Source of the DNA: Salipiger profundus
Lineage (GTDB): Bacteria > Pseudomonadota > Alphaproteobacteria > Rhodobacterales > Rhodobacteraceae
Assembly (NCBI RefSeq): GCF_001969385.1
Contig: NZ_CP014796.1
Coordinates: 2,993,501 to 3,057,500 of the forward strand
Reading direction: 5' to 3'
Length of the DNA: 64,000 nucleotides
Shown here piece by piece: positions 11,090 through 44,124 of this stretch. How positions within the stretch are numbered: the stretch's first letter is position 1; each line of letters begins with the position of its first letter. A program made the translations under genes and the position numbers. The notes beneath the pieces were generated by a model, which saw only the letters and a list, made by a program, of their open reading frames with translations, was not told the origin of the DNA and did not search any database.

Positions 11090-12433
11090 TCAGCGGTCCT
11101 TCGACGCGCGTTCCGCCGCTTCTAGCACGTCCTGCGCCCGGCGCCACGGGGCGGATCCGCGCGGCAGCAGCCCGGCCGCACGTTTCGCGTGGATGCCCGC
11201 GTCCTTCAGCCGGCCCTGCAGGGCGTAGCGCTGTGCCGTCGCCTCAGAGGCCATGCCAGCGTTGCCGGTCTTGGCGTAGGCCACGGCCAGATCGCGCAGC
11301 ACCCGGCCATCGCGCCAGTCGCGGCCCCGGGCGTCTTCGAGGGTCTTCAGCGCGGCGCCGTATTGCCCGGCGGCAAGCTGCGCGCGGCCGAGCCCGCCAA
11401 GGATCTGCGCGTTGCGCGGGGCAAGCCTGCGGGCCTGATCGTAGACCTGTATCGCCGGGCCGGCCTGCCGGGATTCCAGCAGGATCTCGCCCTTTAGGTC
11501 GCGCAGGAACGGATCCTGCGGGCGCATCGCGATGGCCCCGTCGATGGCGGCGAGCGCGCGGCGCAGGTCCGACTGGCGGTGCCGCGCGACGGCCTCGGAC
11601 ATCAGCGCGATGTCGCGCGAGGGGCTGCGATCGAGCCGCCGCAGCGTCCAGTTCGGCGCGCGCAGGAAGGCCGAGAGCTTGGCGCGCGCGCGGGCGAACC
11701 AGTAGGCGGCGGTGGGATCGGTGCCGGACGCGGCGCCCCTGGCACCCGCCACCAGCCCCGCCATCGCGCGCTGGCGGTCCCGGGTCAGCGGGTGGCTGCG
11801 CATGTAGGGATCCTGCCGTCCGGCCGACAGTGCCTCTTGCCCACGGAACAGCTCGAGCACTTCGAGCGCGCCGTGGGGGTCGATACCGGCGCGCGTCAGT
11901 GTCCGGATCGAGGTAATGTCGGCCGAGCTTTCCTCGGCCCGCGTGTGGCTCAGGAAGTTGCGCATCACCGCGTCCTGCGAGCCGATGAGCACGCCGGCGG
12001 CGGCATCGCCGCTGCCGGTCGCGGCGGCAGTGGCGGCGGCAAGGGCCATGCCGAGCGCGGCGGCGGTGCGCGCGCTGCGCATGTTGCCGAGGCGGCGCGC
12101 GATGTGGCCGTTGGTCATGTGCGCGGCCTCGTGGGCGATCACCGCCTGCAGCGCCTCGGGGCTGTCGAGCTTCATCACCAGCCCGGCGTTCACGTAGATC
12201 GCCTGCGTGTCGACGATGAAGGCGTTGAGCGACATGTCGTCGACCACCATCATCCGCACCTGCGAGGGGCTGAGGCCCGCCGCGCGCAGCACCGGGGCGG
12301 CCAGCGCGTCGAGCGCATGTTCGATGTCGGCGTCGCGCAGCAGCGTCACCGCCCGCGCCGGCGCCGCCGACACGAAAAACAGCGCTGCCAGCAAAAGTCC
12401 GGCCAGCAGCCGGACACGATCCACCGCGAACAT
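11090..12433 (-). CDS. M48 family metalloprotease with TPR repeats (BepA-like)
   Basis: The 447-residue protein carries a signal peptide (residues 1-28, LLLAALFFVSAAPARA), then the M48 zinc-protease domain with HEAAHMTNGH near residue 98 and the third ligand in EESSADI near residue 165. The C-terminal half consists of TPR-like helices (LRRALAAIDGAIAMRPQDP, AGPAIQVYDQARRLAPRNAQ). This matches BepA/YfgC, a periplasmic protease that helps assemble or degrade outer-membrane proteins. It is divergent from the aminotransferase gene with only 56 bp between starts, so their promoters must overlap. The DsbA-like gene lies downstream in the same direction. Confidence 0.92.
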   Translation of the reverse strand: MFAVDRVRLLAGLLLAALFFVSAAPARAVTLLRDADIEHALDALAAPVLRAAGLSPSQVRMMVVDDMSLNAFIVDTQAIYVNAGLVMKLDSPEALQAVIAHEAAHMTNGHIARRLGNMRSARTAAALGMALAAATAAATGSGDAAAGVLIGSQDAVMRNFLSHTRAEESSADITSIRTLTRAGIDPHGALEVLELFRGQEALSAGRQDPYMRSHPLTRDRQRAMAGLVAGARGAASGTDPTAAYWFARARAKLSAFLRAPNWTLRRLDRSPSRDIALMSEAVARHRQSDLRRALAAIDGAIAMRPQDPFLRDLKGEILLESRQAGPAIQVYDQARRLAPRNAQILGGLGRAQLAAGQYGAALKTLEDARGRDWRDGRVLRDLAVAYAKTGNAGMASEATAQRYALQGRLKDAGIHAKRAAGLLPRGSAPWRRAQDVLEAAERASKDR

Positions 12434-12489
12434 TGACCCTCCCCGATATCGCCCTTAAGCGAATAGCCAAGCCACCATGGGAGAGCGGA

Positions 12490-13635
12490 ATGCGAAACTC
12501 AAGCAGGGGGGCGGTCGATCCCTTCATTGTGATGGACGTGATGGAGGCGGCCCGCGTCGCCGAGGAAGCCGGACGTCACATCATCCACCTCGAGGTCGGC
12601 CAGCCGTCCTCGGCGGCGCCGGAACACGCGCGCGCCGTGCTGGCGGAGACCATGAAGAACGACCCGCTGGGCTACACCGTGGCGCTCGGCATTCCGGCCC
12701 TGCGCGCCCGCATCGCGCAGCTTTACGGCGAATGGTACGACATCGACCTCGATCCGAACCGGGTGGTGGTGACGCCGGGCTCTTCAGGTGGCTTCGTGCT
12801 GGCATTCACCGCCTTCTTCGACGCGGGCGACCGTCTGGTCACGGGCCGTCCGGGATACCCCTCCTATCGGCAGATCATGAAGGCGCTCGACATTGCGCCG
12901 GTCGAGATCCCGGCGGCACCCGAGAACGGCTACCAGCTGGTGCCCGACGACCTGAAGGGGCTCGACTACCAGGGGCTGATGATGGCCTCGCCGGCCAACC
13001 CCACCGGCACGATGCTGACCCGCGACGAGCTGGGCGCGATGATCGACACCTGCCAGGGCGACGGCGCGACGTTCCTCTCCGACGAGATCTACCACGGCAT
13101 CGAATACGAGCGCCGCGCGGTCTCGGCGCTCGAGATTTCCGACGACGTCTGCGTCATCAACTCGTTCTCCAAGTATTTTTCGATGACAGGCTGGCGGATC
13201 GGCTGGCTGGTGGTGCCCGAGGGGCAGGTGCGGCAGGTCGAGCGTCTGGCGCAGAACCTCTTCATCTGCCCGTCGCACGCGGCGCAGGTGGCGGCGCTCG
13301 CGGCGATGGACGCGACCGAGGAGCTCAACGCGAACCTCGCGGTCTACGCGAAGAACCGGCAGATCCTGCTCGACGGTCTGCCCGGCGCGGGTTTCGACCG
13401 CATCGCGCCGCCCGACGGCGCCTTCTACGTCTACGCGGACGTGAGCCACATCACCGGCGACAGCCGGGCCTTCGCCGCCGAGATCCTCGACAAGGCGGGC
13501 GTGGCGGTCACGCCGGGGCTCGATTTCGACCCCGACCGCGGGCACGGCACGCTGCGGTTTTCCTATGCCGCCAGCACCGCCGACATTGAGGAAGGGCTGG
13601 TGCGGCTCAAGCGCTTCATGCAGGCGCGGGGCTGA
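12490..13635 (+). CDS. Class I/II pyridoxal-phosphate aminotransferase
   Basis: The 381-residue fold-type I aminotransferase has the family features GHPALRARI-like substrate helix (IPALRARIAQLYG), the glycine-rich PLP site TPGSSGGF, the ASPANPTGTML strand, the DEIYHGIEYE loop, and the PLP lysine in NSFSKYFSMTGWRIGW. It transfers amino groups between an amino acid and a 2-oxo acid; the natural substrate (aspartate, aromatic or other) is not clear. The ATG at 12490 follows GGGAGAGCGG. A longer reading from TTG 12433 overlaps the divergent protease start and is unlikely. It stands alone. Confidence 0.9.
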   Translation: MRNSSRGAVDPFIVMDVMEAARVAEEAGRHIIHLEVGQPSSAAPEHARAVLAETMKNDPLGYTVALGIPALRARIAQLYGEWYDIDLDPNRVVVTPGSSGGFVLAFTAFFDAGDRLVTGRPGYPSYRQIMKALDIAPVEIPAAPENGYQLVPDDLKGLDYQGLMMASPANPTGTMLTRDELGAMIDTCQGDGATFLSDEIYHGIEYERRAVSALEISDDVCVINSFSKYFSMTGWRIGWLVVPEGQVRQVERLAQNLFICPSHAAQVAALAAMDATEELNANLAVYAKNRQILLDGLPGAGFDRIAPPDGAFYVYADVSHITGDSRAFAAEILDKAGVAVTPGLDFDPDRGHGTLRFSYAASTADIEEGLVRLKRFMQARG

Positions 13636-13737
13636 CCGGGCGCTGTATTCCGGGCAAAGATCGTCGGCGCCGCGCCCGATAGGCGAATCCGCGCGCCGCG
13701 TGCTAGGGTCGCGGAAAAACGGACACGTGGCAGGCGG

Positions 13738-14952
13738 ATGAGCAGGATTCTTCTACTTCTGGCGGCGATCTGCGCCGCCTCCTGGGCCGCGGCGCAGGAT
13801 CTTGGCGGCCGCGCGCTTTTCGAGTCGGGCCGGCTCGAGGACGACGGCTGGGGCGACGGCACCGAGCTGTCGCTCACGCTCAGCCAGGGCGTGCCGTGGC
13901 GGGCCTTTACCCTGACCGACCCGGCGCGGCTGATCGTCGATTTCCGCGAGGTCGACTGGACCGGCGCCGATCCCGAGGCGATGGATCGCTCGGACAGCGT
14001 GACCGAGTTGCGCGTCGGCGGGTTCCGCTCGGGCTGGTCCCGGCTGGTGGCGGTGCTGGGTCAACCCATGGTGATCGAGCAGGCCGGCATGCGCGTCGCC
14101 GACGGATCGGGCCGCGCCGAACTGGCGCTGCGCCTCGTGCCGGCGAGCGCCGGGGAGATGGCCGCCGCCTCCGGCACGCCGCGCGATCCGCGCTGGGATC
14201 TGCCCGTGCCCGACGCCACTGTCGCCGCCCCCATGCGCCGCGCGGAAGGCGCCCCGTTACGCATTGTCCTCGACCCGGGCCACGGCGGCATCGACCCCGG
14301 CGCCGAGCGCGACGGACAGAGTGAGGCCGCCCTGATGCTCGCCTTCGCGCGCGAGCTGCGCGACGTGCTGCGCCGCGCCGGCTACGAGGTGGTGCTGACC
14401 CGCGACGACGACGTCTTCGTCTCGCTCGAGGGGCGCGTGGCGCTGGCGCATGACGCGCGGGCCGATCTCTTCGTGTCTCTGCACGCCGACGCCATCGAGG
14501 AGGGGATCGCGCATGGTGCCACGGTCTACACGCTGTCCGACGACGCCTCGGACGCGGCTTCGGCGGCGCTTGCCGAGCGGCACGACCGCGATGACCTTCT
14601 CTCGGGGCTGGACCTGTCGGGCTCCGACGACCGTGTGGCCGACGTTCTGCTCGACCTTGCGCGGCTCGACAACACGCCGCGCGGCGTGGCGCTGGCGCGG
14701 CACCTCGTGGACGGCATCCGCAACGCGGTGGGCACGGTGCACAAGCGCCCGCTGCGGCGTGCCGGTTTCTCGGTGCTCAAGGCCGCCGACATTCCCTCTG
14801 TCCTGGTCGAGGTCGGCTTCCTCTCGACGGCGGCCGATCTCGACAACCTGCAGGACCCGATCTGGCGGGCCGGCATGGCGGCCGGCATCCGCGACGGTAT
14901 CACTGACTGGGCGCTCGAGGACGCGGCGTTGGCGCGGCTGCGCCGTCAGTGA
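13738..14952 (+). CDS. N-acetylmuramoyl-L-alanine amidase (AmiC type)
   Basis: The 404-residue periplasmic enzyme cleaves the amide between N-acetylmuramic acid and L-alanine of peptidoglycan during cell separation. It has a signal peptide (to about residue 20, AASWAAAQ), an AMIN-like beta domain (about 35-140) that would target it to the septum, and the Amidase_3 zinc domain (about 175-395). The zinc site is seen in IVLDPGHGGIDPGA (His), a downstream Glu in the SEAALML region, and DLFVSLHADA (His); the catalytic Glu is in SVLVEVGFLST. It lies 119 bp upstream of the PBP1A gene, a common roseobacter order that joins cell-wall cutting and building. Confidence 0.93.
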   Translation: MSRILLLLAAICAASWAAAQDLGGRALFESGRLEDDGWGDGTELSLTLSQGVPWRAFTLTDPARLIVDFREVDWTGADPEAMDRSDSVTELRVGGFRSGWSRLVAVLGQPMVIEQAGMRVADGSGRAELALRLVPASAGEMAAASGTPRDPRWDLPVPDATVAAPMRRAEGAPLRIVLDPGHGGIDPGAERDGQSEAALMLAFARELRDVLRRAGYEVVLTRDDDVFVSLEGRVALAHDARADLFVSLHADAIEEGIAHGATVYTLSDDASDAASAALAERHDRDDLLSGLDLSGSDDRVADVLLDLARLDNTPRGVALARHLVDGIRNAVGTVHKRPLRRAGFSVLKAADIPSVLVEVGFLSTAADLDNLQDPIWRAGMAAGIRDGITDWALEDAALARLRRQ

Positions 14953-33038: not shown

Positions 33039-34025
33039 TCAACCGCCGGGGCCGGGAAGATAGGTGCGCTCTTCGATGGGCGTGGCCGCGATGGCGTCGC
33101 GGATCATCTGCAGCAGGATCATCTCGGCCCGGTTCAGCACCGCCTGCGGGTTCCACACGAGATGCACGTCGATCGCCGGAAGCTCGGAGAAGGGCGGCAC
33201 CTGCCAGAGCAGCCCGTCGGCCACATCGCGCTGCGCCACATGGACCGGCAGCGGGCCGATCCCGAGTCCGGCGATGATCATCCGGCGCACCTCTTCGAGA
33301 TTGCTCGAGGTGCCGTTGATCCGCATGCCGAGCCTCGATTGCGCGCGCATCAGGGCCACCGGTTTCAGCACGTCCTCGAGCCGGTCGGTGTCGAAGCTGA
33401 CCGTGGGCATGCCGTCGAGATCGTCCGGCGTGAGCCCCTCGCGTCCGAAGAGGGGATGGTAGGGTCCGCAGAACAGGCCGAAGAACTCGCGATAGAGGCG
33501 GCTGTATTCCAGCCGCGGATTGCGTGCCCGGACAAGGCAGATCGCGAAGGAGGCCCGCTTGGCCGAGACCTCGGCCAGCGCCTGCGCGCTCGAATGCACG
33601 TCGATCGACAGGCTCGCGCCGGGATGGGCGGCGTGGAACTCGGCCAGGACGCGATCAAAGAATGGGCAGACCACGTGACTGGCCACGGCAAGCTTCACAT
33701 GGCCCCGCACCTCGTCGGTCATCTCGCGCAGCAGCGTCGAGAGCCGCAGGATCGAGCCGTTGATCTCGACCGCCTCGCGGTAGAGCAGCTGGCCCGCCTC
33801 GGTCAGATCGTAGCGCCCCGGTTGCCGGTAGATGAGCTTCCGCCCGACGCGATCTTCCAGTCTTTTCAAGGCGGAAGAGACCGAGGGCTGCTTGAGCCGC
33901 AGCCGTGCCGCGGCCTCGGTCACCGACCGGGATTCGGCCAGCACGACGAAGGTGCGCAGCAGGTTCCAGTCTAGCTCGCGGGCGATGCGCTCAGGATCGT
34001 AGGGATCGGGCTGTATTTGTCTCAT
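33039..34025 (-). CDS. LysR-type regulator, divergent from potB
   Basis: The 328-residue regulator has an N-terminal winged-helix domain (residues 18-77: WNLLRTFVVLAESRSVTEAA, LKQPSVSSALKRLEDRVGRK) and a LysR substrate-binding domain (about 105-315) with the two subdomain pattern (HVKLAVASHVVCPFFDRVLA, RRMIIAGLGIGPLPVHVAQR). It is divergent from the polyamine-type ABC operon at 34112, with an ATCG-N7-CGAT site at 34030-34044 immediately by its own start codon. LysR proteins usually control the divergent operon and themselves. The inducer is likely a compound taken up or degraded by that operon. Confidence 0.92.
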   Translation of the reverse strand: MRQIQPDPYDPERIARELDWNLLRTFVVLAESRSVTEAAARLRLKQPSVSSALKRLEDRVGRKLIYRQPGRYDLTEAGQLLYREAVEINGSILRLSTLLREMTDEVRGHVKLAVASHVVCPFFDRVLAEFHAAHPGASLSIDVHSSAQALAEVSAKRASFAICLVRARNPRLEYSRLYREFFGLFCGPYHPLFGREGLTPDDLDGMPTVSFDTDRLEDVLKPVALMRAQSRLGMRINGTSSNLEEVRRMIIAGLGIGPLPVHVAQRDVADGLLWQVPPFSELPAIDVHLVWNPQAVLNRAEMILLQMIRDAIAATPIEERTYLPGPGG

Positions 34026-34029
34026 CTAT

Positions 34030-34044
34030 ATCGAACATTCCGAT
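34030..34044. promoter_or_regulatory. Candidate LysR box between the regulator and potB
   Basis: ATCG-AACATTC-CGAT is an interrupted palindrome with 4-bp arms and 15 bp in total, as expected for LysR proteins. It lies 5 bp from the regulator's start codon and 68 bp before potB, in the only gap between the divergent genes. Confidence 0.55.
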
Positions 34045-34111
34045 TATCTATTTGATCAATGTGCCCCCGAGCCGAAGCATCGTCCACAGAAAATCGTTCG
34101 AGGAATCGCAT

Positions 34112-34978
34112 ATGTCGGTCGAGGCCCGCGAGGCACGTCAGCCCTGGATCCTGCTTTCACCCGCGTTGGCGGCGGTCACGCTGCTGCTGATCGTGCCGCT
34201 CTGCTTCATCGTGGTCTACAGTTTCTGGCTGCGCACGGCGACCGGCGCGGATCAGGCCGGCTTCTACCTCGACAACTGGCGCGAGGCTCTGACCGACCGC
34301 TTCTACCGCGACATCCTGCTGAACACGCTGAAGATCGCCGGCATCACGACGCTGGTCTGCGCCCTGATGGGCTACCCCTCGGCGTATTTCATCGCCCGTT
34401 CGCGCGGCAACAAGGCGATGCTGCTGCTGCTGCTCATGCTGCCGTTCTGGATCAGCTACATCATACGCACGATGAGTTGGATCAACATCCTCGGGGTCTC
34501 CGGCGCGCTGAACTCGGTTCTGCTGTGGAGTGGGCTGATCTCGGAGCCGGTCCAGATGCTCTACAACGAGACGACGGTGATCCTCGGCCTCGTGCACTTC
34601 CTGCTGCCGTTCATGATCCTCAACATCTTCGTCAGCCTCGACGGCATCGACGTGACGCTCGAGGACGCGGCCAACTCGCTGGGCGCGACGAAATGGCAGA
34701 GCTTCCTGCAGGTGACGCTGCCGCTGTCACTGCCCGGTCTCGCGGCGGGCGGACTGCTGTGCTTCGTGCTGGGGGCGGGCACCTACATCACGCCGCTGGT
34801 GCTCGGCGGACCGACCGACGCGATGTTCGCCAACCTCGTGTTCGAGGCGATCATCACCCAGCTCAACTGGCCGCTGGGCTCGGCGCTGTCGCTGATGCTG
34901 CTGGTGGTGCTGGGCATCCTTGTGGGCATCTACAACCGCTATCTCGGCATGGCGCAACTGATGAAGGGGCTGGGCTGA
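34112..34978 (+). CDS. ABC transporter permease, polyamine type (PotB-like)
   Basis: The 288-residue inner-membrane permease has about six helices. The binding-protein-dependent transport motif, which docks onto the ATPase, lies near residues 185-210 (LEDAANSLGATKWQSFLQVT, with EAA-x3-G spacing). The PotB-type start (WILLSPALAAVTLLLIVPLC) is clear. The ATG at 34112 is the first with GAGGAATCG in front; a longer frame exists but overlaps the LysR gene. It overlaps potC by 1 bp at its stop. Polyamines, amines or related cationic compounds are the usual cargo of this family, but it can also move opines and 2-aminoethylphosphonate. Confidence 0.92.
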   Translation: MSVEAREARQPWILLSPALAAVTLLLIVPLCFIVVYSFWLRTATGADQAGFYLDNWREALTDRFYRDILLNTLKIAGITTLVCALMGYPSAYFIARSRGNKAMLLLLLMLPFWISYIIRTMSWINILGVSGALNSVLLWSGLISEPVQMLYNETTVILGLVHFLLPFMILNIFVSLDGIDVTLEDAANSLGATKWQSFLQVTLPLSLPGLAAGGLLCFVLGAGTYITPLVLGGPTDAMFANLVFEAIITQLNWPLGSALSLMLLVVLGILVGIYNRYLGMAQLMKGLG

Positions 34979-35760
34979 TGGGCTGGTTTTTCATTCGCGG
35001 CTACGCGATCCTCGTCTACCTGTTCATGTTCCTGCCCGTCGCGGTGGTGGTGCTGCTCAGCTTCAACGCGTCGCAGTTCGGCAGCTTCCCGATGACCGGC
35101 TTCTCGTTCCGCTGGTTCGTGGAACTGGCGCAGAACGACGCGATCCTGCGGGCGTTCCGCACGTCCGTGATCCTCGGGCTGCTGACGGCGCTGATCTCGA
35201 CCACGCTGGGCGTGCTCGCGAGCCTCGCGCTGGTGCGCTACCGGGTGCCGGGGGCCAACATGGTCTCGACCCTGCTGATCGCGCCGATCCTCGTGCCCGA
35301 GGTGGTGCTCGCGGTGGCGCTGCTGCTGTTCCTCAACGTGCTGGGCGTCAACAAGAGCTTCGGCCTGCTGCTCTTCGGTCACGTGATCTTCACGCTGCCC
35401 TTCGTGATCCTCGTGGTGCAGGCGCGGCTGGTGTCGATCCGCCGCGACGTCGAGGAGGCCGCCATGAGCCTCGGCGCGAGCCCGCGGCAGACGTTCTTCC
35501 AGATCACCCTGCCGCTGATGCTGCCGGCGGTGCTGGCGGGCGGGCTCTTCGCCTTCACCATCAGCTTCGACGACATCACCGGCACGCTGTTCTGGAAGCC
35601 GGGCGGGGTCGAGACGGTGCCCACCCAGATCTTCGCCATGCTGCGCAACTCGATCAGCCCCGAGATCAACGCGCTCGGCACCGTGATGATCGTGATGACC
35701 GTCGGCCTGCCGCTGCTGGGCGCCGGCATCGCAAGGCAGCTTTCCAAGAAGGGCGGCTGA
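34978..35760 (+). CDS. ABC transporter permease, polyamine type (PotC-like)
   Basis: The 260-residue second permease begins GWFFIRGYAILVYLFMFLPV, followed by the PotC-like SFNASQFGSFPMTGFSFRW. The EAA loop is seen in DVEEAAMSLGASPRQTFFQI near residue 160. The start codon overlaps the stop of potB (TGATG), so the two are translated together and would form a heterodimer in the membrane. It is followed by the binding-protein gene after 50 bp. Six helices and the length both match the family. Confidence 0.92.
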   Translation: MGWFFIRGYAILVYLFMFLPVAVVVLLSFNASQFGSFPMTGFSFRWFVELAQNDAILRAFRTSVILGLLTALISTTLGVLASLALVRYRVPGANMVSTLLIAPILVPEVVLAVALLLFLNVLGVNKSFGLLLFGHVIFTLPFVILVVQARLVSIRRDVEEAAMSLGASPRQTFFQITLPLMLPAVLAGGLFAFTISFDDITGTLFWKPGGVETVPTQIFAMLRNSISPEINALGTVMIVMTVGLPLLGAGIARQLSKKGG

Positions 35761-35810
35761 GATCGCCCGGATTATTCCGACAGAGTGTTCCGACAAGGAG
35801 TGAGAAGACG

Positions 35811-36956
35811 ATGAAGAAGATGGACAACACCACCCGCTACGAGCGCCTGCGCGAGCGCTACATGAACGGCGACGTCGACCGGCGCACGTTCCTCGGCCTG
35901 ATGGGGGCCGCGGGCGCGGCCTACGGTCTTGTCACGCCCTACCGCGCCTTAGCGCAGGACGTGAGCCAGGTGCGTTTCGACGGCTGGGGCGGCGTCGTGT
36001 CGGAGGCGTTCCGCAAGCATGCCTTCGACCCCTACACCAAGAAGACCGGCATCGAGGTCGTCGACGGCACCTTCGGCGGTGGCGATGAGTATCTCAGCCG
36101 GGTCAAGGCGAGCCAGCCGGGCGAATACAACATCGCCCACCTGTCCGGCGTCTTCGACTACGCGCGCTATCACAACCTCGGGCTGTCGTCCGAGCTCAAC
36201 GAGGACAACATCCCCAACCTGCAATACGTGATCCCCAAGCTGGTCGACGTGTTCCGCAAGGTGTCGGGCGGGGCGCTGTCCTGCGTGCCCTACGATTACG
36301 GCACCACCGGGCTTGCCTACAACCGCAAGCACATCTCGGACGACGAGATGAAGGAGAAGGGTGCGAAGATCCTCATCGACGAGGCCTACAAGGGCAAGAT
36401 CTCGGGCTGGGGCGACTGGCGCACGCGGATCTGGTTCGCCTCGCTGCAGACCGGGCAGGACCCGAACGGGGCCGAGGACATGGACGCCGTGTGGGATGCC
36501 ATCCGCGCCCACCGCGATCTCGCGCTGAAATACTGGACCTCGGGCGCCGAGCTGATGTCGCTGCTGGCCGAGGAAGAGGTCTACGTCACCGAGGGCTGGT
36601 CGGGCCGGATCTACGCGCTGCAGGAGCAGGGCCACGACATCGGCTACTACGATCCGCCGAACGGCTACGGCTGGCAGGAGTGTCTCTTCGTGCTCAAGGG
36701 CTCGCCGATGGAGGCCTGCGAGGAGCTGCTGAACTTCATGCTGGCGCCCGAAACGTCGATCGCCGTGGCCGAGGGGCAGAACTACCCGCCGGCGCTCGAC
36801 CCCAACAAGGTCGATCTCGGCGAGAAGATCCCGACGCTGCCGGCCTTCGATCCGAACGGCACGCTCGAAGGGCTGACCTTCGCCGATCCCGAGTACTGGA
36901 ACGGCCACGAGGCGGAATGGTCCAAGACCTTCGGCCGGGTCCAGAAGGGCTACTGA
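35811..36956 (+). CDS. ABC transporter substrate-binding protein, polyamine type (PotD-like)
   Basis: The 381-residue periplasmic protein has an extended N-terminal region with a likely twin-arginine signal (DRRTFLGLMGAAGAAYG, cleavage near ALAQ at residue 49). The fold is PotD-type (SBP_bac_8): RFDGWGGVVSEAFRKHAF at the start, NIAHLSGVFDYARYHNLGL, CVPYDYGTTGLAYNRK and GWSGRIYALQEQGHDIGYYD, the last near the ligand pocket. PotD proteins bind spermidine or putrescine with acidic residues; whether those are kept here needs a model. Its gene lies between the permease and ATPase genes, with a hairpin behind it that may raise its relative expression. Confidence 0.9.
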   Translation: MKKMDNTTRYERLRERYMNGDVDRRTFLGLMGAAGAAYGLVTPYRALAQDVSQVRFDGWGGVVSEAFRKHAFDPYTKKTGIEVVDGTFGGGDEYLSRVKASQPGEYNIAHLSGVFDYARYHNLGLSSELNEDNIPNLQYVIPKLVDVFRKVSGGALSCVPYDYGTTGLAYNRKHISDDEMKEKGAKILIDEAYKGKISGWGDWRTRIWFASLQTGQDPNGAEDMDAVWDAIRAHRDLALKYWTSGAELMSLLAEEEVYVTEGWSGRIYALQEQGHDIGYYDPPNGYGWQECLFVLKGSPMEACEELLNFMLAPETSIAVAEGQNYPPALDPNKVDLGEKIPTLPAFDPNGTLEGLTFADPEYWNGHEAEWSKTFGRVQKGY

Positions 36957-36967
36957 GGCCAGCCGCC

Positions 36968-36996
36968 AGCCGCCCCGGGCCTGATCCGGGGCGGCT
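36968..36996 (+). other. Intercistronic hairpin between potD-like and potA-like genes
   Basis: AGCCGCCCCGG pairs perfectly with CCGGGGCGGCT around GCCTGAT. It lies 11 bp after the binding-protein stop and has no U-run, so it likely protects the 3' end of that part of the mRNA or partly terminates it. Confidence 0.6.
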
Positions 36997-37025
36997 GAGC
37001 CCGACGCCCGAGCAAGGACACACAC

Positions 37026-38111
37026 ATGAGCTCCGTCACCCTGCGCAACGTCGTGAAGCGCTTCCACAAGTTCACGGCGGTGCATGAAACCAACCTCGAG
37101 ATCCCCGAGGGCGCCTTTGTCACGTTGCTCGGCCCCTCGGGCTGCGGCAAGACCACGAACCTGCGCATGATCGCCGGGCTGCTCGATCCGACCAAGGGCG
37201 AGATCCTCATCGGCGGGCGCGCGGTCAACAACGTGCCGATCCACAAGCGCAACCTCGGGATCGTGTTCCAGAACTACGCGCTCTTTCCGCACAAGACCGT
37301 GGCCGAGAACGTCGCCTTCGGTCTGAAATACCGCGACATTCCAAGTTCCGAGATCGCCGGCCGCGTGCAGGCCGCGCTGGATCTCGTGCAGCTCCCGCAT
37401 GTGGGCGAACGCTACCCCAAGGCGCTGTCGGGCGGCCAGCAGCAGCGCATCGCGCTGGCCCGTGCGATCGTCATCGAACCCGACGTGCTGCTGCTCGACG
37501 AGCCGCTCTCGGCGCTCGACGCCAACCTGCGCGAGGACATGCGCGTGGAGTTGAAACGGATCCAGGACAAGATCGGCGTCACCACCGTCTTCGTCACCCA
37601 CGACCAGTCCGAGGCGCTGGCGATGTCCGACAAGATCGTCGTGATGAGCGCGGGTCGGGTCGAGCAGATGGGCAGCCCCGACGAGGTCTACAACAACCCT
37701 GCAAGCGCCTTCGTGGCGAACTTCCTCGGGGCGTCGAACATGCTGCCCGCGCGCTGCACGTCGACCGGCGCCGAGGGCACGACGCTCGATGTCGCGCCCT
37801 TTGGTCCGGTCGCGATCCCCGCCGCCAAGGCGCAGCGGCTCGACGGGGCGGGGCCTGCCACGCTGGTCCTGCGCGCCGAGAAGCTGCAGGTGCTGTCCCC
37901 CGGCAGCGCGCCCCCCGAAATGATCACCGCGCCGGCCACGGTCGAGACCGTCGACTACCAGGGCCAGACGGTGCGCTACTTCCTGCGGCTCGGCGACCGC
38001 CAGCTGCAGGCGCTCAACATGATCGACGAGAAACCATTCGAAGAAGGCGCGCAGGTCGAGATCGGCTTTCGTCCGAAGGACTGCTCCGCGCTGCCCGGGG
38101 AGGCGGAATGA
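37026..38111 (+). CDS. ABC transporter ATPase, polyamine type (PotA-like)
   Basis: The 361-residue ATPase powers the transporter from the cytoplasmic face. It has Walker A in GPSGCGKTTNLRMIAGL, the Q-loop in VFQNYALFPHKTVAENV, the signature LSGGQQQRIALARA, Walker B in VLLLDEPLSALD and the switch His in FVTHDQSEALAMSDK. The C-terminal TOBE regulatory domain covers about residues 275-355. Its start codon follows AGGACACACAC. It overlaps the class III aminotransferase gene by 4 bp (ATGA), which shows that transport and catabolic genes form a single transcription unit. Confidence 0.95.
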   Translation: MSSVTLRNVVKRFHKFTAVHETNLEIPEGAFVTLLGPSGCGKTTNLRMIAGLLDPTKGEILIGGRAVNNVPIHKRNLGIVFQNYALFPHKTVAENVAFGLKYRDIPSSEIAGRVQAALDLVQLPHVGERYPKALSGGQQQRIALARAIVIEPDVLLLDEPLSALDANLREDMRVELKRIQDKIGVTTVFVTHDQSEALAMSDKIVVMSAGRVEQMGSPDEVYNNPASAFVANFLGASNMLPARCTSTGAEGTTLDVAPFGPVAIPAAKAQRLDGAGPATLVLRAEKLQVLSPGSAPPEMITAPATVETVDYQGQTVRYFLRLGDRQLQALNMIDEKPFEEGAQVEIGFRPKDCSALPGEAE

Positions 38112-39445
38112 GCCACCTTTTCTACCAGGGGCACGGTCGCAAGCCCGTGCTCGACCAGGCGCGCGGCGTCTACATGTGGGACACCGACGGCCGACGCTAC
38201 CTCGACGGCTCGTCGGGGGCGATGGTCTGCAACATCGGCCATTCCAACCCGCGCGTGCTGGCGGCGATGCGCGAGCAGATGGACCGCGCCACCTTCGGCT
38301 ACCGTCTGCACTTCGAGACCGAGGCCTCGGAGCGGCTTGCGGCCAAGACCGTCGAGAAGATGCCCGAGGGGCTGTCGAAGGTGTTCTTCGTCTCCGGCGG
38401 CTCGGAGGCGATCGAAAGCGCCATGAAGCTCGCCCGGCAATATGCCGTGGCCATCGGGCAGGGGAGCCGCTGGAAGGTGATCTCGCGCAGCCCGTCCTAC
38501 CACGGATGCACGCTGGGCGCGCTGGCGGTGACCGGCTACCGCAGCCTCACAGAGCCCTTCGCGCCGATGATGCGCGAGATGCCCAAGGTGCCCGCGCCGC
38601 GAGCCTATCTTGATGGCCTCGACCCCGACGACCCCGCCACCGGACACCATTATGCCGACATGCTCGAGGCGCAGATCCTGCGCGAGGGCCCCGAGAGCGT
38701 GCTGGCCTTCGTGCTCGAGCCGGTGGGCGGGGCCTCGACCGGGGCGCTGGTGCCGCCGGAGGGCTACATGGCCCGCATCCGCGAGATTTGCGACCGCCAT
38801 GGCGTGCTTCTCATCATGGACGAGGTGATGACCGGCGCCGGGCGCACCGGCGCGTTCCTCGGCTGCGAGCACTGGAACACCCGGCCCGACATCGTGGTGA
38901 TGTCCAAGGGCTTCGCCGCCGGCTACGCGCCGCTCGGTGGCATCGTGGCGCCCGACTGGCTCGTCGGGCCGGTGCTCGACCAGGGCGGCTTCGCGCATGG
39001 CTTCACCTATGCCGGCAACCCGCTGGCCTGTGCCGCCGGTGCCGCCGTGCTCGACGAGATCGACCGGCAGGGGCTGGTCGGGAACGCCGCCATCATGGGC
39101 GAGAAGCTCAAGGCGCGGCTGCACGCGCTTGCGCAGAAGCATGAGATCATCGGGGACGTGCGCGGCAAGGGGCTGCTCACCGCCTTCGAGTTCATGTCCG
39201 ACCCGGTGACCAAGGCGCCGCTGCCGAAGGAGCTGCGTGCCTTCGACCGTTTCGTGCAGATCGCCTACGAGAACGGTCTCATCGTCTACTCGCGCCGGAC
39301 CCGCGACGGGGTGGAGGGCGACCATATCCTCGTCTGTCCGCCGCTCATCGTCACCGATGCCCATCTCGACGAGATCGTCGAGGGGCTCGACCTGTCGCTC
39401 GCGCAGTTCCGCGCCGAGCTTCCGGCACTCGACAAGGTCCACTGA
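38108..39445 (+). CDS. Class III aminotransferase
   Basis: The 445-residue PLP enzyme has the class III features HFETEASERLAAK, VSGGSEAIESAMKLARQYAV, the SYHG PLP-contacting loop in RSPSYHGCTLGALAVTGY, the metal-like DEVMTGAGRTG, and PLP lysine at residue 267 in VVMSKGFAAGYAPLGGI. Class III enzymes act on omega-amino, beta-amino or diamine groups, with pyruvate or 2-oxoglutarate as partner. The overlap with the ATPase gene upstream and the immediate start of the DUF849 gene downstream suggest it acts on the imported substrate. If its product is a beta-keto acid, the next enzyme could use it directly; that is inference. Confidence 0.92.
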   Translation: MSHLFYQGHGRKPVLDQARGVYMWDTDGRRYLDGSSGAMVCNIGHSNPRVLAAMREQMDRATFGYRLHFETEASERLAAKTVEKMPEGLSKVFFVSGGSEAIESAMKLARQYAVAIGQGSRWKVISRSPSYHGCTLGALAVTGYRSLTEPFAPMMREMPKVPAPRAYLDGLDPDDPATGHHYADMLEAQILREGPESVLAFVLEPVGGASTGALVPPEGYMARIREICDRHGVLLIMDEVMTGAGRTGAFLGCEHWNTRPDIVVMSKGFAAGYAPLGGIVAPDWLVGPVLDQGGFAHGFTYAGNPLACAAGAAVLDEIDRQGLVGNAAIMGEKLKARLHALAQKHEIIGDVRGKGLLTAFEFMSDPVTKAPLPKELRAFDRFVQIAYENGLIVYSRRTRDGVEGDHILVCPPLIVTDAHLDEIVEGLDLSLAQFRAELPALDKVH

Positions 39446-40372
39446 ATGTCCAAGATCCTCATCACCTGCGCGCTGACGGGCTCGATCCACACGCCCTCGA
39501 TGTCGCCCTACCTGCCGGTCACCGCCGACGAGATCGTCGAGCAGGGGCTGGCGGCGGCCGAGGCGGGCGCCGCGATCCTGCACCTGCATGCGCGCGATCC
39601 CGACACCGGCCGGCCCTCGGCCGCGCCCGAGCATTACGACGCCTTCCTGCCGCGCCTGAAACAGGCGAGCGACGCGGTGCTCAACCTCACCACCGGAGGC
39701 AGCGCCGTGATGACGCTCGACGAGCGGCTCGCCGGGCCCAAGGCGGCGGAGCCCGAGATGTGCTCGCTCAACATGGGCAGCATGAACTTCGCGCTCTACC
39801 CGCTGGCGCAGCGCATCGACACCTGGATGCACGACTGGGAAAAGCCGTTCCTCGAAGGCTCGGACGATCTCATCTTCAAGAACACGCCGCGCGACATCGC
39901 GCATGTGCTGACCGAGATGGGCGAGAAACGCGGCGCGCGGTTCGAGTTCGAATGCTACGACGTCGGACATCTCTACATGCTGCGGCATTTCATGGATCGC
40001 GGCATGGTGCCCGGCACGCCCTTCCTGCAGTTCGTCTTCGGCGTGCTGGGGGGCATCGGGCCGGACCCGGAGAACCTCGTCCACATGAAGCACATTGCCG
40101 ACAAGCTCTTCCCCGATGGCTACCAGTTCTCGGTGCTGGCGGCGGGGCGTCACCAGATGCCGCTCGCGACCATGGCGGCGGCGCTGGGCGGGCACGTCCG
40201 TGTCGGTCTCGAGGACAGCCTGACCATCGCGCGCGGGACGCTGGCGAAATCCAACGCCGAGCAGGTCGCCAAGATCCGCCGCATCGTCGAGGAGCTGGGA
40301 CGCGAGCCCGCCACCCCCGACGAGGCGCGCGCGATGCTGGGCCTCAAGGGCGCGGACAGGACGGCGATATGA
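39446..40372 (+). CDS. Beta-keto acid cleavage enzyme (BKACE, DUF849)
   Basis: The 308-residue TIM-barrel enzyme belongs to the DUF849/BKACE family. These zinc enzymes cleave a beta-keto acid with acetyl-CoA to acetoacetate and an acyl-CoA; the first known member works in lysine fermentation. Zinc-binding HLHARDP near residue 48 (HxH motif), GGSAVMTLDERLAG, and the C-terminal GLEDSLTIARGTLAKSN are all visible. Its ATG directly follows the aminotransferase stop with no gap, and the GNAT gene overlaps its 3' end by 4 bp. In this setting it likely takes the keto acid made by the aminotransferase. The side chain it accepts is unknown and decides the pathway. Confidence 0.9.
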   Translation: MSKILITCALTGSIHTPSMSPYLPVTADEIVEQGLAAAEAGAAILHLHARDPDTGRPSAAPEHYDAFLPRLKQASDAVLNLTTGGSAVMTLDERLAGPKAAEPEMCSLNMGSMNFALYPLAQRIDTWMHDWEKPFLEGSDDLIFKNTPRDIAHVLTEMGEKRGARFEFECYDVGHLYMLRHFMDRGMVPGTPFLQFVFGVLGGIGPDPENLVHMKHIADKLFPDGYQFSVLAAGRHQMPLATMAAALGGHVRVGLEDSLTIARGTLAKSNAEQVAKIRRIVEELGREPATPDEARAMLGLKGADRTAI

Positions 40373-40857
40373 GCGTGACATTCCGACAGGCCGGGGCGGG
40401 CGACGTGCCCGCCCTCAACGCCGCGCTGGCACGGCTCTCGGCGGACATCGGCGACACCCACCGCGCCTCGGACGAGGACCTGCGGCGCGCGGGCTTCGGC
40501 GCCCATCCGGCGTTTCGCGCGGTCCTTGCGGAGACGGCGGAGGGGCTCGTAGGAGTCGCGCTCTACTCGCCTGCCATGTCGACCTCGAAGGGGCTGGTGG
40601 TGACCTACGTCGCCGATCTATGGATCTCGCCGGACCTGCGCGGCCAGCGGCTGGGGCCGCGGCTGCTGGCGGCGGTCGCCCGGGATGCGGCCGAGACCTG
40701 GGGCGCTCGGGCGCTGAAGCTCAACGTCTACCATGCAAGCCCCGACGCGCGGCGCTTCTACGACCGGCTGGGCTTCGTCGCGGCCACACAGCACACCGAG
40801 ATGTTCCTGGACGAGGCCCGGACGGCGGATCTTGCAACACATGGAGAAAAGGCATGA
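40369..40857 (+). CDS. GNAT family N-acetyltransferase
   Basis: The 162-residue enzyme transfers an acetyl group from acetyl-CoA to an amine. The GNAT acetyl-CoA-binding motif A is seen in ADLWISPDLRGQRLGPRLLA near residue 80-100, and motif B in LNVYHASPDARRFYDRLGFV near residue 120-140. It overlaps the DUF849 gene before it and the acetylpolyamine amidohydrolase gene after it (each ATGA), so all three are translated together. Diamine or polyamine acetyltransferases belong to this superfamily. In this operon it could cap a free amino group of the imported substrate, with the deacetylase acting later. Substrate is inferred from context only. Confidence 0.85.
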   Translation: MSVTFRQAGAGDVPALNAALARLSADIGDTHRASDEDLRRAGFGAHPAFRAVLAETAEGLVGVALYSPAMSTSKGLVVTYVADLWISPDLRGQRLGPRLLAAVARDAAETWGARALKLNVYHASPDARRFYDRLGFVAATQHTEMFLDEARTADLATHGEKA

Positions 40858-41876
40858 AGGCATTCTTCGACGCCCGGCAGTGGAAGCACGCGCCGCAGCA
40901 CTTCATGGCGAACGGCACGCTGCTGCCCAACCCCGAAGAGCCGCGCCGGATCGAGATCCTGACCGACGCTGCCGAAGCCGCCGGTTGCCGGTTCGAGATG
41001 CCCGACGACGCGGGGCTCGGGCCCATCGCGGCGCTGCACACCGCCGAATACATCACCTTCCTGCGCAACATCTATACCCGCTGGCGGCGGATCGATGGCG
41101 CGGGCGCGGAGGTCATTCCCAACATCCACCCCGCCAATCGCACCGACGGCTATCCGAAATCGGCGGTGGGGCAGGCGGGCTGGCACCAGGCGGATACAGC
41201 CTGTCCGATCGCCGAGCATACCTTCGAAGCCGCCTACTGGTCGGCTCAGAGCGCCATCGCGGGGGCCGACCACCTGCTTGCGGGCGGTGACATGGCCTAT
41301 GCGCTCTCGCGGCCGCCGGGGCACCACGCCTTTGCCGATCTCGCCGGCGGCTTCTGCTTCTTCAACAACGCCGGCATCGCCGCCGAACGGCTGCGCGCAG
41401 CCGGCCTGCGCCCGGCCATCGTCGATGTCGACGTGCACCACGGCAACGGCACGCAGGGGATATTCTACGAGCGGGGCGACGTGCTGACGGTGTCGATCCA
41501 CGCCGATCCCGCGCGGTTCTACCCGTTTTTCTGGGGCCATGCGCAGGAGCGCGGCGCGGGCGCGGGGCTGGGGACGAACCTCAACCTGCCGCTTGCACGC
41601 GGCACCGGCGATGACGACTACCTCGGCACGCTGGCGACGGCGTTGGAGCGCTGCGACAGCTTCGGGGCGGACGTGATCGTTGTGGCGCTGGGCCTCGATG
41701 CGTCCATCGACGACCCGTTCCAAGGGCTCGCGGTCACGCAGGAGGGCTTCACCCGCATCGGCGCGGCGCTGGCCGCTACCGGGCGCAAGCTGCTCTTCCT
41801 GCAGGAAGGCGGCTACGTCAGCGAGACGCTCGGCGCCAACCTGACCCACGTGCTGACCGGCGCGACGGGGGGCTGA
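40854..41876 (+). CDS. Acetylpolyamine amidohydrolase (histone deacetylase family)
   Basis: This 340-residue zinc deacetylase resembles bacterial acetylpolyamine amidohydrolase more than short HDAC-like enzymes. The catalytic His pair is in RPPGHHAFADLAGGF (residues 157-158), the zinc ligands are Asp193 and His195 in DVDVHHGNG and Asp282 in GLDASIDDP, and GGY near the C terminus gives the catalytic Tyr. The L1 insertion near 75-115 (with YTRWRRIDGAG) is of the kind that narrows the entrance in such enzymes. It would release acetate from N-acetylated diamines or polyamines. It closes an operon with a polyamine-type transporter and an acetyltransferase, which supports that use. Confidence 0.9.
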   Translation: MKAFFDARQWKHAPQHFMANGTLLPNPEEPRRIEILTDAAEAAGCRFEMPDDAGLGPIAALHTAEYITFLRNIYTRWRRIDGAGAEVIPNIHPANRTDGYPKSAVGQAGWHQADTACPIAEHTFEAAYWSAQSAIAGADHLLAGGDMAYALSRPPGHHAFADLAGGFCFFNNAGIAAERLRAAGLRPAIVDVDVHHGNGTQGIFYERGDVLTVSIHADPARFYPFFWGHAQERGAGAGLGTNLNLPLARGTGDDDYLGTLATALERCDSFGADVIVVALGLDASIDDPFQGLAVTQEGFTRIGAALAATGRKLLFLQEGGYVSETLGANLTHVLTGATGG

Positions 41877-41882
41877 ACCCGG

Positions 41883-42773
41883 TCAGCCGGCGATCTCGCG
41901 CAGCAGCCAGTCTCGGAAGCGCTGGACGTGCGGGCTCGACCGCGATCGCTCCGGCAGGATCAGCGCGTAATGCTCGCCGGTCTCGAAGCGGCGCGGCGCG
42001 GCCAGCGCCAGCGCGCCCCGCTCGAGCGCCGGCCGGGCGACGATCTCGGGTACGATGCCCACGCCGAGTCCGGCGATGGCGGCGTCGACGATCATGTCGA
42101 AATGATCGAGCCGCGCGCCGCGCAGGATGCGGCGGGGATCGGTCTCGGAGCCCCGGAACCAGTCGAGCCAGAGCGTCGGGCGGGTGGATTGCTGCAGCAG
42201 CGGCAGCTCCAGAAGCTCGGCATCGCTCAGCGCCGCGCGGCCGCGCAGCAGCGCTGGCGCGGCGACGATCACCATCGTCTCGGGCAGAACCGGCTCCGAG
42301 GTGACACCGGGCATGTCATGCCCGCTGCGCATAATCGCAAGGTCGAGCGGCTCGCGGCCGAAGTCCACCGGCAGCAGCCGCGCACTGAGGTCGAGGCTGA
42401 TCTCGGGAGCCTCGCGCGCAAAGCCCGAGAGCCGCGGGATGAGCCAGATCCGCGCGAGGCTCGGCAGCACCGCCATGCGCAGCACGGCGTCGCGCCCGCC
42501 GAAGGCCATGACCCCCATTGCCGCCTCGTCGAGCCCGGCGAGCAGATGTTCGGCCCGGTCAAGGAAGGCATGGCCCGCAGGCGAAAGCACGAGCCGCTGG
42601 CGCACGCGGTTGAAGAGCGCAACGCCCAGCCGGTCCTCGAGCGAGGCGAGCGAACGCGAGATCGCGCTCTGCGTCAGCCCGAGGCTTTCGGCAGCCATCG
42701 TCGTGGTGCCGCGCCGGGCGCAGGCGGTGAAGGCCTCGAGCTCGGCCACGGAGGGGATGTAGGCTTTGCGCAT
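41883..42773 (-). CDS. LysR-type regulator divergent from gcdH
   Basis: The 296-residue regulator has the N-terminal winged helix (VAELEAFTACARRGTTTMAA, LTQSAISRSLASLEDRLGVA) and the substrate-binding domain (about residues 90-290, with GLGVGIVPEIVARPALERGA near the end). It is divergent from the glutaryl-CoA dehydrogenase gene, and the space between them has an ATGAG-N5-CTCAT palindrome. A LysR protein next to gcdH is a known arrangement in proteobacteria (GcdR), in which glutarate or glutaryl-CoA signals lysine breakdown. It converges on the amidohydrolase gene with 6 bp between stops, so its transcript overlaps the end of the other operon. Confidence 0.9.
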   Translation of the reverse strand: MRKAYIPSVAELEAFTACARRGTTTMAAESLGLTQSAISRSLASLEDRLGVALFNRVRQRLVLSPAGHAFLDRAEHLLAGLDEAAMGVMAFGGRDAVLRMAVLPSLARIWLIPRLSGFAREAPEISLDLSARLLPVDFGREPLDLAIMRSGHDMPGVTSEPVLPETMVIVAAPALLRGRAALSDAELLELPLLQQSTRPTLWLDWFRGSETDPRRILRGARLDHFDMIVDAAIAGLGVGIVPEIVARPALERGALALAAPRRFETGEHYALILPERSRSSPHVQRFRDWLLREIAG

Positions 42774-42807
42774 GCACCTTTTCTAGCGGTGGGAAGCGCT
42801 TGAGGCT

Positions 42808-42822
42808 ATGAGTTTTCCTCAT
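42808..42822. promoter_or_regulatory. Candidate LysR box in the gcdH promoter gap
   Basis: ATGAG-TTTTC-CTCAT is a 5-bp inverted repeat of the T-N11-A type. It lies 34 bp from the regulator's start and 81 bp before gcdH, between the two divergent genes. Confidence 0.55.
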
Positions 42823-42903
42823 TCCTTGCGCAAATTAATTCGTTTCCATGTGCGGGGCATCTTGCGTAGGGTGCGGGCCGAGACGAGACAAGGATTGAGA
42901 CAG

Positions 42904-44124
42904 ATGGCCGACGCCCCCGCTCTTCGCCCCAAGGACAACCCCGCGCTCGCGGGTTTCTCGTGGGAGGATCCGTTCCTCTTCGACGCGCAGCTCGAGGAAG
43001 ACGAGCGCATGATCGCCGAGAGCGCCCGCGCCTTCGCGCAGGACAAGCTCATGCCCCGGGTCGAGCACGCCTACATGGACGAGCAGACCGACCCGGAGAT
43101 CTTCGCCGAGATGGGCGCGCAGGGGCTGCTGGGGGTCACGGTGCCCGAGCAATATGGCGGCATCGGCGCGGGCTACGTGAGCTACGGGCTTGTCGCGCGC
43201 GAGATCGAGCGGGTCGACAGTGGCTACCGCTCGATGATGTCGGTGCAGTCGAGCCTCGTGATGTATCCGATCTATGCCTACGGCTCCGAGGCGCAGCGGC
43301 AGAAATACCTGCCGAAACTCGCGAGCGGCGAATGGATCGGCTGCTTCGGCCTGACCGAGCCCGACGCCGGCTCGGACCCGGCGGGCATGAAGACCCGCGC
43401 GGTGAAGACCGAGGGCGGCTACCGGCTCAAGGGTGCGAAGATGTGGATCTCGAACAGCCCGCTGGCGGATGTCTTCGTGGTCTGGGCGAAGTCCGAGGCG
43501 CATGGCGGCAAGATCCGCGGCTTCGTGCTCGAGAAGGGCATGAAGGGGCTGTCGGCGCCGAAGATCGGCGGCAAGCTGAGCCTGCGCGCGAGCATCACCG
43601 GCGAGATCGTCATGGATGACGTCGAGGTCGGCGAGGATGCGCTGCTGCCGAACGTCGAGGGGCTCAAGGGGCCGTTCGGCTGCCTCAACCGCGCGCGCTA
43701 CGGCATCGCATGGGGCGTGATGGGCGCGGCCGAGTTCTGCTGGATGCAGGCGCGGCAATACGGGCTCGATCGCAAGCAGTTCGACAAGCCGATCGCCGGG
43801 ACGCAGCTGTTCCAGAAGAAGCTTGCCGACATGCAGACCGAGATCGCGCTGGGACTGCAGGCGGCGCTGCGGGTTGGGCGGCTCATGGACGGCGCGCAGG
43901 CGGCTCCCGAGATGATCTCGCTCATCAAGCGCAACAACTGCGGCAAGGCACTCGACATCGCGCGGATGGCCCGCGACATGCACGGCGGCAACGGCATCCA
44001 GATCGAATACGGCGTGATGCGTCACGCGGCGAACCTCGAGACGGTGAACACCTACGAGGGCACGCACGACGTGCACGCGCTGATCCTCGGGCGGGCACAG
44101 ACCGGCATCCAGGCGTTTTTCTGA
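42904..44124 (+). CDS. gcdH: Glutaryl-CoA dehydrogenase
   Basis: The 406-residue FAD enzyme dehydrogenates and decarboxylates glutaryl-CoA to crotonyl-CoA in lysine and glutarate breakdown. It has the acyl-CoA dehydrogenase core: [20 protein letters not shown] (FAD site), [18 protein letters not shown], and catalytic Glu in [19 protein letters not shown]. The start ([20 protein letters not shown]) and ending are of the GcdH type and not the short-chain kind. ATG 42904 is preceded by AAGGA about nine bases upstream. It is the only gene on this transcript; the divergent LysR gene probably controls it. Copy B of the intergenic repeat follows. Confidence 0.92.

Follow-up and report, generated by a model that had tools for sequence, protein, structure and literature searches.

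Gene content of the locus

The window analysed here is a 64,000-nucleotide stretch of the 5.4 Mb genome of Salipiger profundus (contig NZ_CP014796.1, positions 2,993,501 to 3,057,500), and our subject is an operon of eight plus-strand genes within it, which we read, with a probability of about 0.6, as a system for the acetyl-protected breakdown of a beta-amino acid, specifically a beta,omega-diamino acid. The operon opens with an ABC transporter, composed of a PotB-like permease (34112-34978), a PotC-like permease (34978-35760), a periplasmic solute-binding protein of the SBP_bac_8 family with remote likeness to PotD (35811-36956) and an ATP-binding protein of the PotA/PhnT/UgpC type with Pfam ABC_tran and TOBE_2 domains (37026-38111). 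It continues into a class III aminotransferase (38108-39445; Pfam Aminotran_3, 332 bits), a beta-keto acid cleavage enzyme (BKACE) of the DUF849 family (39446-40372), a GNAT acetyltransferase (40369-40857; Pfam Acetyltransf_1, 49.5 bits) and a zinc amidohydrolase with the histone deacetylase (HDAC) fold (40854-41876; Pfam Hist_deacetyl, 233.9 bits; PDB matches 3men, 9gkz and 3q9b). The aminotransferase, whose best PDB match is 3i4j, is expected to convert a 3-amino-omega-acetamido acid to the 3-oxo acid, and the HDAC-like enzyme is the predicted deacetylase of the cleaved product. A LysR-type regulator gene with Pfam HTH_1 and LysR_substrate domains lies on the minus strand (33039-34025), divergent from the operon, and we infer that the operon is probably LysR-controlled.

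The gene content, order, strand and coordinates given in an earlier interpretation of the bare sequence (the sequence-only reading) were correct for all eight genes. Its 4-bp overlaps "at most joints" come down to three of seven, namely those between the potA-like and aminotransferase genes, the BKACE and GNAT genes, and the GNAT and HDAC-like genes. At the remaining joints, the potB- and potC-like genes overlap by 1 bp, the aminotransferase and BKACE genes abut, and gaps of 50 bp and 69 bp separate potC from potD and potD from potA, respectively. The second half of the operon is accordingly joined more tightly than the first.

Conservation across genomes

We searched 198 evenly drawn genomes of the family, that of S. 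profundus included, for the acetyltransferase at E<=1e-20. It is present in 27 of them, again including our own: 15 carry the aminotransferase, BKACE, GNAT and HDAC-like genes together, 10 have at least one of the other core genes adjoining the GNAT gene, and two (L037 and L052) have none, as judged by eye. The only other sampled genome of the same genus gave no GNAT match at this threshold. A second survey was limited to the best 80 of the 561 stretches confirmed in a deacetylase-profile scan with one genome per species; a duplicate (L127) was removed, leaving 79 loci, and several of their organisms recur among the 198 family genomes. Gene presence in these loci was scored by tblastn with identity thresholds, and absence means not found at those settings. 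The aminotransferase, BKACE and GNAT genes are all found in 58 loci, the first two alone in 13, the aminotransferase and GNAT genes in four, and the deacetylase by itself in three, while one locus with BKACE and GNAT has its contig cut just upstream. Per gene, this amounts to 75 aminotransferases, 72 BKACEs and 63 acetyltransferases in a set chosen by its deacetylase, and a relative of the LysR gene lies near the core in 71 of the 79 loci.

Conservation of the gene order, which the sequence-only reading had made a test of its own proposal, was found in both the family survey and the 79-locus survey, and the conservation of the block is more than chance. The operon represents a gene set common to many marine bacteria, with the closest named relatives of the acetyltransferase and, among the matches listed, of the deacetylase in Salipiger and its kin. 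Salipiger bermudensis and Roseibium aggregatum are two marine species in which it is present.

Two enzyme sets behind one aminotransferase

The strongest evidence for the acetyl-protected reading is a cassette swap, in which two unrelated enzyme sets occupy equivalent slots behind one aminotransferase. Four loci with genes for 3-oxoacid CoA-transferase (L043, L046, L199 and L204) contain neither a BKACE nor an HDAC-like gene. Two of them, near copies of each other on plasmids of Alisedimentitalea scapharcae (L199) and Rhodobacteraceae bacterium M382 (L204), run from LysR and a polar-amino-acid-type transporter through the aminotransferase to CoA-transferase subunits A and B, an ArgE/DapE deacylase and a thiolase, and the L199 aminotransferase is 64% identical to that of the window. 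The order in L046 is aminotransferase, GNAT, CoA-transferase A and B and ArgE/DapE deacylase, and that in L043 is potBCDA, aminotransferase, GNAT and CoA-transferase A and B. In a tree of 109 aminotransferases, built by a quick method, enzymes linked to BKACE surround the four CoA-transferase-linked ones, which occupy three separate positions, and the starred branches require three or more changes.

BKACE with acetyl-CoA, and CoA-transferase with thiolase, can each shorten a 3-oxo acid to an acyl-CoA, and HDAC-like enzymes and ArgE/DapE deacylases both hydrolyse N-acyl amides. The swap thus points to an aminotransferase whose product is probably a 3-oxo acid and to an N-acyl cap that is probably removed afterwards. 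Both steps had been proposed in the sequence-only reading, and both gain support here: the beta-keto acid from the replacement of BKACE by CoA-transferase (with thiolase in two of the four loci) behind aminotransferases of the same tree, and the deacylation from the ArgE/DapE enzyme that replaces the HDAC-like one in three of the four.

Directly after the CoA-transferase variant of L043, open reading frames at 11545-14517 of that locus resemble ectR and ectABC of ectoine synthesis by eye. Ectoine degradation was considered as a function for the operon and rejected; the block is without any ectoine gene, even though L043 neighbours these EctA/B/C-looking reading frames.

Predicted addition and removal of an acetyl cap

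The best PDB match of the GNAT profile is a thialysine acetyltransferase (12jc, 96.1 bits), followed by an unnamed probable acetyltransferase (2fe7, 94.8 bits), diamine acetyltransferase 2 (2bei, 79.1 bits), diamine acetyltransferase 1 (3bj7, 58.5 bits) and the ornithine N5-acetyltransferase NATA1 (8xj5, 57.1 bits). The named relatives modify diamino acids or polyamines at a distal amine. This kinship supports placing the window protein in the thialysine/ornithine/diamine group and predicting that it acetylates a distal amine, as the sequence-only reading had suggested.

The HDAC-like proteins retain the catalytic His pair, the metal ligands and the Tyr in all 115 unique sequences, and these features, together with the fold, are shared with the acetylpolyamine amidohydrolases of Mycoplana ramosa and Pseudomonas. 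They differ from those enzymes in gene context and at the equivalents of Mycoplana Glu106 and Glu117, which are V, I, T, A or G and A or S, respectively, and acidic in none of the 115. In the Mycoplana enzyme, Glu106 and Glu117 bind polyamine nitrogens, as described in passages of PMC11532494 and PMC5454378; the former also describes Pseudomonas ApaH, which has His at position 106 and is yet active on polyamines (PMC11532494).

Elsewhere in the S. profundus genome, a second locus (L187; G000:C1:2790500-2810000) encodes an HDAC-like protein (45%) together with a deacylase of the ArgE/DapE type (53%) and an aminotransferase of class III (33%), and genes for ABC transporter ATPases lie a few kilobases from them. 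It is possibly a paralogous acetyl-cap system.

The cleavage enzyme

Membership of the window protein in the BKACE family (PF05853) is clear, at 371.7 bits against a cut-off of 24.8. Among the relatives considered, the nearest with a substrate list is BKACE15 of Paracoccus denitrificans (8rio/8rip; 367 bits), with the solved structures 3e02 and 3e49 being closer but given no function. Residues E169 and R252, mapped by hand on an alignment with BKACE15 as the equivalents of its E171 and R254, are the same in all 98 rows. According to passages of PMC11961710, E171 of BKACE15 is the base, R254 is named alongside it, and the enzyme accepts beta-keto acids without charge, beta-ketohexanoate and 3,5-dioxohexanoate among them, which fits an acetyl-capped chain. 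The gene context of BKACE15 itself is ascribed to aromatic degradation (PMC11961710), and BKACE enzymes more generally have been grouped by substrate (PMC4922564). The window protein shares its family and reaction type with Kce, which cleaves 3-keto-5-aminohexanoate in lysine fermentation, but it scores 238.8 against the 382 of the Kce model NF052387, and an acetylated rather than a free amine is expected here. No Kce proteins for comparison were found in 299 genomes, a search that gave no positive-control signal either.

The transporter and its exchange

All four Pot-like proteins fall below the curated NCBIfam cut-offs for PotA, PotB, PotC and PotD. The two permeases score 198.8 bits with PRK09497 (cut-off 348) and 209.3 bits with PRK09500 (cut-off 326), the Pfam score of the PotB-like one is marginally under its cut-off (25.7 against 26.4), and the binding protein reaches 74.2 bits in Pfam and 38.4 with the PotD model (cut-off 582). 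Judged by these scores, "Pot" is a loose label for this transporter. A Pot-type system, recognised by potD, lies near the core in 52 of the 79 loci, a polar-amino-acid-type binding protein in 19 and a branched-chain type in two. In one of the 19 (L088), the core is not the neighbour of the polar binding protein, which adjoins a Pot-type operon instead. The top models for the polar binding protein of L077 are cystine and lysine/arginine/ornithine, all below cut-off. No transporter was seen in seven of the 79 loci, which are mostly cut contigs or a lone deacetylase. This exchange among relatives favours an amino acid over a polyamine as the cargo.

A proposed pathway and its precedents

From the protein families, gene order, conservation, cassette swap, GNAT kinship and missing glutamates, we infer an order of steps, a substrate and products. 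The ABC transporter would import a beta,omega-diamino acid, for which L-beta-lysine (or N6-acetyl-beta-lysine) is the likeliest, though still tentative, choice of actual substrate. The GNAT enzyme would acetylate its distal amine, converting beta-lysine to N6-acetyl-beta-lysine, with the consequence that the later amino-keto acid could not cyclise. The aminotransferase would then turn the 3-amine into a ketone, giving 6-acetamido-3-oxohexanoate, which BKACE and acetyl-CoA would convert to acetoacetate and 4-acetamidobutanoyl-CoA. Finally, the HDAC-like amidohydrolase would release acetate and leave 4-aminobutanoate, or its CoA ester, to enter succinate metabolism. Two genes for succinate-semialdehyde dehydrogenase score above cut-off in the S. 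profundus genome.

Similar chemistry has reportedly been seen before. The Barker group is said to have described, in 1979-81, an aerobic degradation of beta-lysine in a Pseudomonas by acetylation and transamination, followed by a CoA-dependent cut of the 3-keto acid and removal of the acetyl group, with an N6-acetyl-beta-lysine transaminase (EC 2.6.1.65) and a 4-acetamidobutyryl-CoA deacetylase (EC 3.5.1.51) reportedly among its enzymes. The operon shares with this reported pathway the logical order of the four steps. The pathway is known as biochemistry to which no genes are known to have been assigned, and no family is known for its cleavage enzyme or deacetylase. At the level of genes, the yodP-yodQ-yodR-yodS-yodT/kamA cluster of Bacillus subtilis is said to offer a parallel, with a class III aminotransferase, a GNAT protein, a deacylase and a CoA-dependent step on a 3-keto acid; it reportedly differs in having a lysine 2,3-aminomutase and in being without a transporter, a BKACE or an HDAC-like enzyme. 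The CoA-transferase variants L043, L046, L199 and L204 resemble the yod cluster even more than the window does. YodT and the window aminotransferase also have a common best PDB match, 3i4j, which is the nearest structure to YodT in a survey of B. subtilis pyridoxal-phosphate enzymes, where KamA (BSU19690) and YodT (BSU19740) are both listed under SigE (passages of PMC6522883). The combination that marks these systems, an aminotransferase with an acetyltransferase, a 3-keto acid CoA step and a deacylase, is present in the window and its variants.

A literature search over titles, abstract starts and term counts returned no paper on the Barker pathway and nothing resembling an account of this operon or pathway. 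The chemistry set out in the sequence-only reading is largely supported and indeed strengthened by our analysis. Its statement that such chemistry was not known to be described is weakened and probably wrong, judging by the reported Barker-group and yod precedents. Should the reading hold, the operon would supply candidate genes for N6-acetyl-beta-lysine transaminase and 4-acetamidobutyryl-CoA deacetylase, activities to which no genes are known to have been assigned, and thus gene candidates for a little-studied breakdown route. It would also correct the automatic names of two proteins (the "phloroglucinol-type" cleavage enzyme and the "acetylpolyamine" or histone deacetylase-family hydrolase) and make it directly testable whether marine Rhodobacterales use D-amino acids and compounds of the beta-lysine type.

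Observations that weigh against the pathway

Several observations weigh against this pathway. Some concern the supply and fate of its intermediates in S. profundus, whose genome contains no GABA aminotransferase or acetoacetyl-CoA synthetase above cut-off and no lysine 2,3-aminomutase at E<=1e-3, so that beta-lysine would need to be imported. A motif scan for KamA in 126 related loci gave five matches, none of which is KamA by eye, and none of 25 KamA-like loci of Pseudomonadota has relatives of the operon genes close by, although this adjacency test is weak because the flanks span about 1.5 kb and no KamA match reaches cut-off. Others concern how firmly the genes belong together. BKACE was not found in seven of the 79 loci and GNAT in 16, and six loci have aminotransferase, GNAT and HDAC-like genes with neither BKACE nor CoA-transferase nearby (L042, from the same genome region as L136, and L075, L082, L086, L177 and L178). 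In a phylum sample of 398 genomes, the deacetylase (E<=1e-60) matched in 89 and BKACE (E<=1e-85) in 44, and the two lie side by side, by eye, in 14, our own included; most phylum relatives of the deacetylase therefore sit outside this operon. The 16 HDAC-like homologues that do not adjoin the aminotransferase all lack both polyamine-binding glutamates too, which indicates that the loss is a trait of a broader clade rather than of the operon in particular. In addition, a polyamine-type diamine acetyltransferase is among the GNAT relatives, at 58.5 bits, and the window BKACE passes the cut-off of NF053538, the model for a 3,5-dioxohexanoate:acetyl-CoA enzyme (494.8 against 430). That name is probably too broad, since no other gene of the operon fits phloroglucinol breakdown, and we rejected a phloroglucinol-type cleavage of 3,5-dioxohexanoate on the same grounds.

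In three of the Pseudomonadota loci (L189, L192 and L193), the KamA-like gene sits next to an open reading frame whose product resembles, by eye, an ATP-grasp protein of the D-Ala-D-Ala ligase type, which suggests a different use of beta-lysine there.

D-amino-acid modules and alternative substrates

Many of the 79 loci carry genes for the handling of D-amino acids. A homologue of the D-arginine dehydrogenase DauA lies near the deacetylase in 43, one of these proteins having 3nyc as its best PDB match (292 bits), and RidA accompanies the DauA-like context in 24. An M20 amidohydrolase with an alanine-racemase-family protein occurs in nine loci, and a pair resembling DgcA and DgcN, far below the NCBIfam cut-offs, in two. 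The three modules are mutually exclusive, with no locus holding two kinds, and none of them is found near the core in 25 loci or in the window. Among 53 aligned DauA homologues, the equivalent of E87 is kept in 48 rows and those of R222, R305, Y53 and Y249 in all 53; we take the former to bind the side chain and the latter to bind the carboxylate. The substrates of such modules are D-alpha-amino acids, and the breakdown of beta-lysine has no need of them, a further point against the proposed pathway and one that the sequence-only reading did not anticipate. Their presence may extend an operon for rare lysine isomers to D-lysine, or it may signal that an alpha-amino acid is the real substrate.

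The first of these options leads to a broader picture that we regard as doubtful: a widespread system of alphaproteobacteria, for the most part marine, that deals with rare lysine isomers as a class, combines a capped BKACE/HDAC route evolved by the exchange of entire enzyme cassettes with three exclusive entry modules for D-amino acids, takes up and degrades D-alpha- and beta-lysine (or their relatives) together, and contains in its HDAC-like clade a new type of small-molecule deacetylase for omega-acetamido acids or their CoA esters. The second option, which we consider unlikely, is that the operon degrades D- and L-alpha-lysine (or ornithine). The GNAT enzyme would then cap the distal amine, the aminotransferase would act on the alpha-amine, the HDAC-like enzyme would uncap the shortened product and BKACE would serve some later 3-oxo acid, while relatives would supply the D-form by way of a dehydrogenase for D-amino acids, a racemase or a pair of enzymes for N-acetylation and epimerisation. 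The D-modules of relatives, never combined, speak for it, as do the thialysine and ornithine names among the GNAT relatives and the DauA residues, whose roles point to basic D-amino acids. Neither BKACE nor 3-oxoacid CoA-transferase with thiolase, the enzymes in the slot behind the aminotransferase, is known to act on an alpha-keto acid, however, and a D-module is missing from the window as well as from the 25 loci.

It is also rather unlikely that the same chemistry serves another beta-amino acid with a distal amine, such as beta-ornithine or 3,5-diaminohexanoate, or that the deacetylase and BKACE belong to two small pathways sharing a transporter. The evidence on the substrate is all indirect, and GNAT and BKACE are each missing from some of the loci, but the four core genes overlap or abut, and the CoA-transferase loci lack BKACE and the HDAC-like enzyme alike. 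Use of an acetylated polyamine or diamine through Pot-type uptake, deacetylation and transamination is very improbable, for the Pot-like transporter, the diamine acetyltransferases among the GNAT relatives and the PDB proximity of the HDAC-fold enzyme to acetylpolyamine amidohydrolases are set against relatives that swap in polar-amino-acid and branched-chain-type transporters, the absence of the two glutamates (although the Pseudomonas polyamine deacetylase also lacks Glu106) and the want of an obvious beta-keto acid for BKACE or CoA-transferase. The sequence-only reading had left the substrate as beta-lysine-like or polyamine-derived; the beta,omega-diamino acid is now favoured, and the polyamine has lost support through the transporter exchange and the glutamates missing from all 115 sequences.

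Neighbouring genes

A gene resembling N,N-dimethylformamidase (DMFA2_C) lies just upstream of the aminotransferase gene in eight of eight loci, L173-L179 of family f10 and L205 on a Sinorhizobium plasmid, and the Shinella plasmid locus L203 is without it. A creatininase-family gene is found inside the transporter block in five of the 79 loci. Downstream of the operon in the window, a second LysR gene (41883-42773) and an acyl-CoA dehydrogenase gene, by eye of the glutaryl-CoA type, diverge from each other within 41883-44124. We keep this pair out of the operon because, among the loci of the transporter survey, its close relatives adjoin the operon only in L059.

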